64,000 nt of DNA from Sphingobacteriaceae bacterium. Lineage in GTDB: Bacteria; Bacteroidota; Bacteroidia; Sphingobacteriales; Sphingobacteriaceae. The notes under the pieces are model-generated. The model was not told the origin of the DNA and ran no database searches. It saw only the letters and a list, made by a program, of their open reading frames with translations. A program made the position numbers and the translations under genes. Positions 4,637-24,439 of this stretch are shown one piece after another; position 1 is the first letter of the stretch; the number at the start of each line of letters is the position of its first letter. The stretch spans positions 62,001 through 126,000 of the forward strand of contig CANHGR010000005.1 of NCBI GenBank assembly GCA_947460875.1, given 5' to 3'.

Positions 4637-4744
4637 TTTGTTGTGAGATATCCCACAGCAAACAAGAAGAATGAGGAGGAAATACGAATAAACAGTATTT
4701 TCATCCTAGCTTCAATCCCCGAAAGCTATGAATTAATAAAATGC

Positions 4745-4917
4745 TTATAGGCAGGTCTTCTGACTTACTCCCGGCTTATCCGACCTTCCCATCCCGATTT
4801 TAATTCGAAAAAGTGGCTCAAGAATGGATAACCGTTATGGAGAACACAGCAGCGGGTCTGTCCCGGATTCGCACCAGGTTCCCTTTTAATCCCGTAATAA
4901 CGGGCACCAAAAGCGTT
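4745..4917 (-). promoter_or_regulatory. Cobalamin (adenosylcobalamin) riboswitch
   Basis: Read on the minus strand, the leader contains the conserved blocks of the cobalamin riboswitch in the right order. First comes GGTGC...GGGAA, then GGTGCGAATCCGGGAC, then the B12 box and its surroundings (GACCCGCTGCTGTG at about 4848-4861). The GCCACT element is at about 4812-4817, then GGGAAGGTCGG, then AAGCCGGGAG, and the closing AGAAGACCTGCC at about 4751-4762. The 5' GGTGCCCG and 3' blocks enclose the aptamer. It ends about 110 bases before the start of the TonB-dependent receptor. Known members switch off downstream expression when cobalamin is bound, so the receptor should be repressed under B12 sufficiency. 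Confidence 0.94.
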
Positions 4918-5011
4918 CGAATGTAGAAAATTTATTTACCACTAGAAATTATTGTGGATAAAATAGTACGATGTGATGAAATCCTTTCATTAGATTTTAA
5001 ATAAGTATTAA

Positions 5012-22699: not shown

Positions 22700-23266
22700 T
22701 TAACTTTCACCCCAACGATAAGACTCGCTTTCAAATCCCGCTAAATCGATAATTCTATCGACAACGGTTGTGGCGAGCTCTTCAATCGTTTTTGGCTTGC
22801 TATAAAATGAAGGCACTGCTGGACAAATGATTCCGCCTGCTTCAGTTACAGCCTTCATATTATTAATATGAATCAAGTTCAAAGGAGTATCCCGAACGGC
22901 AAGGATTAGTTTTTTTCTCTCTTTTAAAATTACATCAGCAGCTCGGGTGATCAGATCATTTGAGATGCCAGCAGCAATCCTTGCCAGGGTTCCCATTGAA
23001 CAAGGACAAATAATCATTGTGTCGTAACCGGCAGAGCCAGATGCAAACGGCGCGCTGAAATCAGACTTATCATACTTTTTGAACAAATAGTTAGAATAAG
23101 ACTCGTCCCCAAGCTCATATTTCCATACTTGTTTTGCATTATCAGACATTACCAGCCCTATTTCAATAGTTTGTTCTGAAAGTGCGGACAATTTGTCTAA
23201 CAAAATTCTTGCGTAAATTGCTCCACTAGCACCTGTAACGGCGATTACAACTTTTTTCTTTTTCAT
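22700..23266 (-). CDS. ubiX: Flavin prenyltransferase UbiX
   Basis: Makes prenylated FMN, the cofactor of UbiD-type decarboxylases. I use the ATG at 23266 (188 residues); the GTG at 23272 would add only two residues. The FMN-binding start VVIAVTGASGAIYARILL, the CPCSMGTLARIAAG motif with the catalytic-region cysteine and serine, and the LAVRDTPLNLIHINNM motif are all present. No ubiD partner is in the window. It heads the minus-strand cluster. A hairpin terminator on the same strand (23291-23328) sits in its leader, which may mean attenuation or the end of an upstream small RNA. Confidence 0.93.
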   Translation of the reverse strand: MKKKKVVIAVTGASGAIYARILLDKLSALSEQTIEIGLVMSDNAKQVWKYELGDESYSNYLFKKYDKSDFSAPFASGSAGYDTMIICPCSMGTLARIAAGISNDLITRAADVILKERKKLILAVRDTPLNLIHINNMKAVTEAGGIICPAVPSFYSKPKTIEELATTVVDRIIDLAGFESESYRWGES

Positions 23267-23290
23267 AAACACTGCAAATATAGATGTTCG

Positions 23291-23328
23291 AAAAACAAAA
23301 AAAGTGTCGAATGCAAGTATTCAACACT
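23291..23328 (-). terminator. Minus-strand intrinsic terminator in the ubiX leader
   Basis: Read on the minus strand, AGTGTTGAAT, a 6-base loop, and ATTCGACACT form a 10-base-pair stem with one G-T pair, followed by seven T residues. It lies just 25 bases before the ubiX start and after no coding sequence on that strand. It is therefore either an attenuator for ubiX or the end of an unannotated small transcript from 23329-23584. Confidence 0.75.
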
Positions 23329-23584
23329 ATATCTACTGATAAAAGACATGCCTCTAAACAGGAGCGTTAAAAATGCAACCTTTAATTAGAAAATTTACGT
23401 CCGTTTTATACTTCTTTGCGACAACTGTCTAATAAAATGAAGTCAGATTTCCGTGTGTTTTCTGTCGAGTCGATAATCCCTGTCAACATCCAAAGATGCA
23501 GCTATTGCGATAGTATTTTAGTACAAATTAAAATCTAGTTCCTAATTAAAATAGCTAATTTTAAGGTATATCTCATATAAGAAT
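23329..23584. other. Intergenic region between ubiX and amn, no gene seen
   Basis: With the terminator, this 318-base gap separates two divergent genes. No open reading frame with a plausible start and composition is present. On the minus strand a CTCGACAG segment at about 23462-23469 could pair with the 5' arm of the terminator hairpin. This would be compatible with an antiterminator but is short. I could not identify a known RNA family. Confidence 0.4.
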
Positions 23585-24439
23585 ATGACCAAAGGAAACG
23601 ATCTAACGAAAGTCGGTGCGGAATCATCAGCTTCAAAAAAAGTTCATTCGCCAATCAAAGAAGGCCTTAAATCAAAGCAAGATATTGTAAACAATTGGCT
23701 TCCCCGGTACACCGGCAGAGCGCTTGATGAATTTGCCGATTTTATAATTCTAACCAATTTTTCGAGGTATGTACAGCTGTTTTCTGAATGGCACAACCAC
23801 GTCCCGATAATAGGTCTAGACAAACCTATGCAAAGTGCTAGTGCAGAAGGTATTACAATTATAAATTTCGGAATGGGGAGTCCGATGGCAGCAACTATGA
23901 TGGATCTTCTTAGTGCGATCAAACCAAAGGCGGCGCTCTTCTTGGGCAAGTGCGGCGGGCTAAAAAAGAAGAACAATATTGGCGATTTCATACTTCCAAT
24001 TGCAGCTATAAGAGGTGAAGGAACCTCAAACGATTACTATCCGCCTGAAGTGCCTGCGCTCCCATCCTTTGCGCTTCAAAAAGCGATATCTACCACCATC
24101 AGAGACAGCGGACTGGACTATTGGACCGGTACCGTGTATACAACAAACCGACGGGTTTGGGAGCACGATAAGAATTTCAAAAAATATCTAAAATCCTTGC
24201 GAGCAATGGCTATTGATATGGAAACTGCAACGATTTTTTCAACTGGGTTCGCTAATAAGATACCGACGGGTGCTTTGTTACTGATTTCTGATCAGCCCAT
24301 GATCCCTGAGGGTGTTAAAACTGTAAAAAGTGATTCAAAAGTAACCGAGCAATTTGTAGAAACACATTTGAGAGTCGGAATTGATTCATTAAGGCAGTTG
24401 ATAAACAATGGCTTAACAGTGAAACATCTGAAATTTTAG
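23585..24439 (+). CDS. amn: AMP nucleosidase
   Basis: Hydrolyses AMP to adenine and ribose-5-phosphate, controlling the adenylate pool. The 284 residues comprise mostly the phosphorylase-type catalytic domain and lack the large N-terminal regulatory domain of the 484-residue E. coli enzyme. This short form is usual in Bacteroidota. The nucleotide-binding INFGMGSPMAATMMDLL segment, FLGKCGGLKKK, and the purine-site AIDMETATIFSTGFA with its conserved Met-Glu are intact. A Lys-rich N-terminal tail of about 30 residues precedes the domain. The next gene downstream is a pseudogene, so amn may be monocistronic. Confidence 0.92.
   Translation: MTKGNDLTKVGAESSASKKVHSPIKEGLKSKQDIVNNWLPRYTGRALDEFADFIILTNFSRYVQLFSEWHNHVPIIGLDKPMQSASAEGITIINFGMGSPMAATMMDLLSAIKPKAALFLGKCGGLKKKNNIGDFILPIAAIRGEGTSNDYYPPEVPALPSFALQKAISTTIRDSGLDYWTGTVYTTNRRVWEHDKNFKKYLKSLRAMAIDMETATIFSTGFANKIPTGALLLISDQPMIPEGVKTVKSDSKVTEQFVETHLRVGIDSLRQLINNGLTVKHLKF

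Follow-up and report, generated by a model that had tools for sequence, protein, structure and literature searches.

We identified the hairpin and T-run that precede ubiX on the minus strand of the window (the 64,000-nt stretch of Sphingobacteriaceae DNA analysed here) as the likely intrinsic terminator of a small RNA (sRNA) gene. This gene would be the diverged, single-copy member of a conserved family of RNAs, each about 70 nt long, that presumably act in trans and have ubiX as a mere neighbour (probability about 0.8). The gene ending the intergenic region at 23266 encodes a Flavoprotein-family protein, whose identity as UbiX comes from relatives. The first-pass annotation had described a strong hairpin and T-run ahead of ubiX with no gene preceding it on that strand, and both parts of the description stood. 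The hairpin arms on the minus strand (AGTGTTGAAT/ATTCGACACT) are followed by the T-run and then by a G and five more T, down to 23291, and the upstream neighbour is a divergent gene that probably encodes an AMP nucleosidase (Table 1). Taken alone, the hairpin is at chance level, with two terminator-like sites in 3.5 kb versus 2.9 ± 1.7 in shuffled sequence, and the folding of the 295-nt leader is unremarkable beside that of its shuffles (z −0.40). What shows the terminator to be real is the homology of the hairpin in relatives.

Table 1. Features of the ubiX upstream region, in window positions.
Feature	Position	Strand	Basis
ubiX, flavin prenyltransferase family	22700..23266	-	Pfam Flavoprotein, E 3.1e-44
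Predicted ubiX promoter, -7 box TATATTTG	23275..23282	-	exact TAnnTTTG, between terminator and ATG
T-run of intrinsic terminator	23297..23303	-	sequence; seven T
Small RNA gene (model match)	23298..23369	-	model R1, 46.1 bits, E 1.4e-7
Terminator hairpin AGTGTTGAATACTTGCATTCGACACT	23303..23328	-	10 pairs, loop of 6
Linker/seed GUCUUUUAUCAGUAGAUAUA	23328..23347	-	5 of 20 bases differ from family GUUUUUCAUAGGUAGAUGUA
5' hairpin (hairpin 1), weakened in the window copy	23350..23365	-	5 pairs in window fold versus 6 covarying pairs in family
Degenerate -7 box TGCATTTT	23370..23377	-	2 mismatches, at the site of the relatives' TAnnTTTG
Divergent upstream gene, phosphorylase superfamily	23585..24439	+	Pfam PNP_UDP_1, E 8.9e-32

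The comparison drew on 110 ubiX loci, 30 of them kept from 60 related genomes (47 of which matched) and 80 taken from named genome records. A terminator-like hairpin stood upstream of ubiX in 39 of these loci, 34 times of the present kind; five hairpins of differing shape (L063, L098, L107, L108, L110) were set aside and one locus (L037) was omitted because its DNA is identical to that of L016. The 33 aligned loci share a TAnnTTTG box, a hairpin of the form TGCCC..GGGCA or TACCC..GGGTA, a linker and a terminator, and in 32 of them the linker reads ATGTTTTTCATAGGTAGATGT, the exception being the window. The RNA is thus laid out as a 5' hairpin and a terminator hairpin joined by a nearly invariant linker (GUUUUUCAUAGGUAGAUGUA). 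Among the 80 named loci the RNA was present in 17, which comprise all 12 titled Pedobacter, all three titled Mucilaginibacter and two MAGs titled Bacteroidetes; L054 (Daejeonella) and L059 (titled Sphingobacteriaceae) gave no match within the fetched flanks. Pedobacter belongs to the Sphingobacteriaceae and the DNA upstream of ubiX is identical in G034 and Pedobacter sp. Leaf194. From the named relatives and this identity we infer that the sampled family (f1) is the Sphingobacteriaceae.

A covariance search of the leader across relatives, the check proposed in the first-pass annotation, recovered a conserved RNA. The model (R1) was built from the loci of 8 relatives, with the window excluded from the seed, and found the window copy as listed in Table 1, with a runner-up inside the window of 10.8 bits only; a second model (R2), whose seed includes the window, recovered the same copy with an E value of 2.2e-7. 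Matches occurred in 31 of 37 genomes of the same family versus none of 23 from other families. In a larger sample of the family the RNA was found in 380 of 399 genomes (about 95%) and 20 of 25 genera, and in a class-wide sample of 395 genomes it matched 23, namely 15 from f1 and eight weaker ones outside it (best E 1.4e-6). Copy number varies: a single copy was found in the window's genome and at least 12 in G030, and some genomes carry paralogs beside other genes. The copy numbers from the larger family sample are lower bounds, with 12 candidates scored per genome. Plasmid and phage records searched for the RNA gave no match.

The aligned sequences covary as expected of a folded RNA. Pairing is kept in 96.0% of the cells among 73 distinct sequences, in an alignment fitted to the model, which favours pairing, and falls to only 40-50% when the pairing partners are slid by 1-3 columns. 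All 16 pairs vary on both sides somewhere and both stems covary; double changes fill 203 cells versus 37.8 ± 5.8 in shuffles, a count reached by none of 500 (the alignment again being the one fitted to the model). Between the stems, the linker is predicted to be unpaired in folds of intact relatives, and its core (TTTTCATAGGTAGAT) is present in 69 of the 73 distinct sequences, the four without it being the window, G005 and the paralogs L148 and L170. The option that the hairpin forms the end of a small RNA, one of those raised from the initial inspection of the sequence, is well supported by this conserved, covarying family.

The Bacteroidota sigma-A -7 box is described as TAnnTTTG at positions -12 to -5 (PMC9723704). 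An exact box starts 7-9 nt ahead of the model start in 41 of 74 matches (74 of 78 rows were used, the other four being second fetches of the same place), a spacing that would put the 5' end of the RNA at hairpin 1. Among these are 21 of the 23 genomes with ubiX-linked copies, the exceptions being the window's and G005. If the family spacing holds, transcription in the window would start about 4 nt inside the model match, near 23365. Features expected of an intrinsically terminated intergenic sRNA (a predicted promoter of its own, its own terminator and conserved structure) are found at the level of the family; the window copy itself has no exact promoter box.

None of the families in Rfam 15 scored over threshold for this RNA. 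Over the whole window the library returned a cobalamin riboswitch elsewhere (4733-4926, minus strand; 90.7 bits, E 3.8e-21) and no 6S RNA, tmRNA, SRP or other family, and over 20 relative loci it returned only tRNAs above the gathering score. The linker is similar to the FopS/GibS seed of Bacteroides sRNAs, the likeness lying in TGTTTTTCATAG..TAGAT. In B. thetaiotaomicron, FopS sRNAs carry an R1' seed with the consensus GTGTTTTTCATAGTATTAGATTTAAGGTTAACAAA and are described as repressing susC through base pairing at its start codon, an effect opposed by RbpB (PMC11697453). The family core aligns with the R1' consensus in 21 of 26 columns, a fit equalled in 2 of 20000 cases by shuffling and in 2 of 5000 by dinucleotide shuffling; the window copy scores 8 against the R1/R1' seed versus 15 for the family core, the likeness being largely lost. 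FopS (RF04319, BTncRNA_FopS)/GibS and the present RNA are both about 65-70 nt long and have in common a housekeeping-type promoter (for FopS), a terminator after the seed and several copies in some genomes. Both also have a viral link, since a FopS sequence is reported in a phage (PMC11697453) and the exact 19-nt core of the present RNA occurs in two IMG/VR viral contigs, L222 (1924-1942, minus strand) and L223 (4003-4021, plus strand). In L222 the core precedes a terminator-like repeat, so a phage possibly carries the RNA, as reported for FopS.

Differences from FopS are equally evident. The present RNA has a covarying 5' hairpin before the seed, whereas FopS is described as having an unpaired 5' end followed by one terminator hairpin (PMC11697453). 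Unlike FopS, it is often single-copy and an RRM partner is often absent: 17 of the 31 genomes with the RNA, that of the window included, lack RRM_1 proteins, the type of the FopS partner, so that such a partner is not supported as a requirement. Membership in RF04319 was rejected, with none of 37 genomes (23 of the family) over the 56-bit gathering score and L051 at 18.3 bits; the window was not listed against this model at E values up to 10. The main text of the FopS paper mentions neither Pedobacter nor Sphingobacteria (PMC11697453).

Other known RNAs stand further off. The RNA mmgR (Rfam suhB, RF00519) is likewise built of two hairpins, the 5' one of GCCC..GGGC and the other a GGG..CCC terminator, but the present RNA scores 24.8 to 29.1 bits against it, under the 41-bit gathering score, and the linker differs. 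mmgR is alphaproteobacterial. The sub-threshold likeness of L117 and L121 to RF00519 (29.1 versus 41 bits) is probably a convergent layout. The Listeria RNA sbrA (RF01489) has the terminator shape and a UAGAUGU string in common with the present RNA but belongs to a different phylum and gives 25.2 versus 45 bits. Rfp18 of Flavobacterium is also a conserved intergenic Bacteroidota sRNA; its predicted pairing region is described as lying in a third stem-loop, which sets it apart from the present RNA by description rather than by sequence (PMC9723704). Pedo-repair (RF01715) is listed as a candidate structured RNA for Pedobacter (PMC2864571), and its model in the Rfam library matched none of the present loci. 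Searches of the literature (mostly open-access papers, with bioRxiv outside their scope) for sRNAs of Sphingobacteriaceae and ubiX, Pedobacter, Sphingobacterium or Mucilaginibacter, and for GibS homologs, returned no account of the RNA. The two 14-base strings of the core were absent from the same mostly open-access literature, and among the 20 papers containing shorter seed strings the FopS paper alone concerns, by its title, Bacteroidota sRNAs.

Because the linker resembles the FopS/GibS seed, a trans-acting regulator is the likeliest role for the RNA, and our best guess is that it acts on start codons. The linker would anneal to mRNAs at and around CUAUGAAAAAC-type start codons, in the manner of FopS and its near-identical seed. 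The complement of the core contains CUAUGAAAAAC, which reads as a start codon and a signal-peptide-like beginning. The window copy departs from this scheme. Its linker changes include the C of CAU, the triplet that would face AUG, and it pairs worse than the family core with the starts of relatives; GUAGAU is retained. The window copy folds with a z of only −2.06. In the terminator stem, the third pair, G-C in most relatives, has become T-A and the sixth, C-G, has become T-G, so that pairing is kept by a double change and one wobble. Given that the linker has lost CAU and the promoter is poor, whereas the terminator stem still pairs, the RNA of this small genome may be drifting out of, or may have been retuned from, a start-codon role.

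The window copy is most simply read as a case of drift after its targets were lost. The strongest form of this reading, to which we assign somewhat less than even odds, is that the sRNA is functional in the family and dead here, the hairpin surviving by inertia or merely insulating ubiX from upstream transcription. The altered linker in a family that otherwise holds its core nearly constant, the degenerate promoter box, the weak hairpin 1, the lone copy in the genome and the presence of four SusC proteins over the cut-off in that genome all point this way, as does the changed core of another small genome (G005, 1.7 Mb). Speaking against it are the intact terminator stem with its paired double change and the retention of the core by the other small genomes G010, G029 and G032 (about 2 Mb). 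The G005 copy (L169, 1978-2042, plus strand) reads TTTTTTTATAGG in the core, and the congener G029 keeps the family core. Retuning is possible too, and here we are more doubtful: the linker and its targets would have changed together, with regulation continuing at different sites. Such a course is consistent with the preserved terminator pairing and the remaining GUAGAU; speaking against it is the search of the window's own genome for the complement of the linker with up to three mismatches, which returned the gene itself and one place with three mismatches (imperfect pairing escapes a search of this kind).

For the family as a whole, tests of pairing at start codons gave mixed results. The 40 susC starts of relatives, called by a crude signal-peptide score among about 15 places scored per genome, were not significantly paired with the core (24 of 200 shuffles were as good). 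The other tests used starts called in 400 kb and placed, crudely, at whichever ATG came first in the longest frame. In G016 (292 starts), strong pairings with the core exceeded those of all 100 shuffled cores at four cut-offs, and 1 of the 100 attained its mean pairing energy. In G011 (254 starts), the core counts at the four cut-offs were equalled by 19 to 32 of the 100 shuffled cores and the mean by 6 of 100. With the CAU half (GUUUUUCAU) held constant, the core was reached by 10, 7 and 1 of 100 shuffles at three cut-offs in G016 and by 53, 48 and 59 of 100 in G011. Shifted windows showed pairing rising at the start codon in G016 only, with no peak in G011. A search of 37 genomes for the core complement with up to two mismatches returned sRNA genes and scattered places, and each genome also had 0 to 4 matches to a backwards control. 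Of 20 such places that were fetched, eight have an ATG that opens a frame of at least 90 codons; no gene was seen to recur, and one of the places lies in a genome without an sRNA match (G012).

These weak targeting tests, and a linker that is nearly invariant over paralogs and orthologs, would also fit an RNA whose linker is a site for a protein, as a sponge or guide, rather than an mRNA seed. We consider this rather unlikely, since the seed is akin to the FopS/GibS one, which is reported as shown to pair with mRNAs (PMC11697453), and RRM proteins do not track the RNA (they are present in 14 of the 31 genomes with the RNA and in four of the six family genomes without it). Pairing with mRNAs in trans remains our preferred reading of the linker.

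The relation of the RNA to ubiX is one of position. By the best RNA match per genome, 23 of the 31 matching genomes have the RNA about 31 to 380 nt ahead of ubiX, and in the other eight there is no ubiX within 500 nt (in G027 it is 3.5 kb away and G031 has no ubiX match). The ubiX gene of the window has a predicted promoter of its own after the terminator, as its exact -7 box stands 8 nt before the ATG; the -12 to -5 position of the sigma-A box would place the ubiX start near 23270, with a predicted leader of 4 nt, and there was no clear -33 box upstream of TATATTTG. Between terminator and ATG, the 33 ubiX loci contain an exact box in 11 cases (2.0 expected from shuffles) and a box with at most one mismatch in 30. 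An attenuator governed by flavin or another signal had been suggested at first, with a promoter between 23291 and 23266 named as the observation that would speak against it; by sequence, TATATTTG would be such a promoter. The upstream segment CTCGACAG (23469-23462), thought to pair with the 5' arm of the hairpin, makes six pairs with it, a number equalled or exceeded in 500 of 500 leader shuffles, and the longest real alternative pairing, elsewhere in the leader, has nine pairs and was matched in 174 of 500. Moreover, CTCGACAG is separated from the sRNA by about 92 nt on the upstream side, in a stretch that holds 0.21 bits per column over the 33 loci, no more than further upstream. Thus, although 19 of the 31 genomes have the RNA on the same strand as ubiX and only about 31-88 nt ahead of it, we regard as very improbable a riboswitch-like attenuator in which transcription starts upstream and a signal chooses between the terminator and an alternative pairing, given the exact promoter box after the terminator, the variable or absent linkage to ubiX, the paralogs that adjoin other genes, the chance-level pairing and the little conservation upstream of the RNA promoter. 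A leader element sharing the ubiX transcript and constantly linked to the gene was rejected on the same promoter box and the same eight unlinked genomes. From the sequence comparisons, ubiX appears to be a neighbour of the sRNA rather than the gene it regulates.

Matches outside the family and paralogs within it may extend the picture. Five outside-family matches were inspected: L254 and L256 keep CATAGGTAGA, L255 keeps CATAGGT, L257 has CATGGT and L258 is seemingly unrelated. In L254, L255, L256 and L257, which are weak matches from other families of the class, the model alignment gives a hairpin, TTTTCATAGG (TTTTTCATGG in L257) and a terminator, a layout that suggests a wider class of start-facing sRNAs. 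Within the family, 11 of 32 matches without TAnnTTTG (32 of the 33 box-less matches were used, the window being omitted) have TGTAAC-N14-19-GTA, where 0.03 were expected, the pattern having been spotted in these sequences before it was counted. All 11 come from three genomes (G030, G006 and G033), and a relaxed form of the pattern adds one match, in G011. The loci are L143, L144, L145, L146 (four copies), L148, L154, L155 and L162. A CGT -10 box is assigned to ECF sigma factors in Flavobacterium (PMC9723704); the C of CGT is not present in all 11. We consider these putative promoters of RNA paralogs to be of the ECF-sigma type. One cluster in G030 has four RNA copies among genes for a PAS/histidine kinase, a response regulator and a BLUF protein, and some of the paralogs with ECF-type promoters have a kinase, response regulator, BLUF or YtxH gene close by, which hints at a possible light or stress regulon.

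The small RNA family is new to Rfam 15, and for this bacterial family the literature searched gave one candidate motif, Pedo-repair. Seeds that face start codons may be in use throughout the phylum, given the likeness of the linker to the FopS seed of gut Bacteroides. Tentatively, we propose an ancient Bacteroidota class of sRNAs that face start codons and have the seed UUUUUCAUAG as their basis, represented in the Sphingobacteriaceae by a near-universal 70-nt RNA, often beside ubiX, and by ECF-driven paralogs (TGTAAC..GTA), some of them by sensory or stress genes. MicA and RybB are sigma-E sRNAs of enterobacteria. If the proposal is true, the Bacteroidota RNAs would be a counterpart of these sigma-E sRNAs in which one seed exists in a housekeeping and a stress-driven version. 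A single copy was found in many species, which would make deletion analysis simpler than in B. thetaiotaomicron with its 14 FopS copies.
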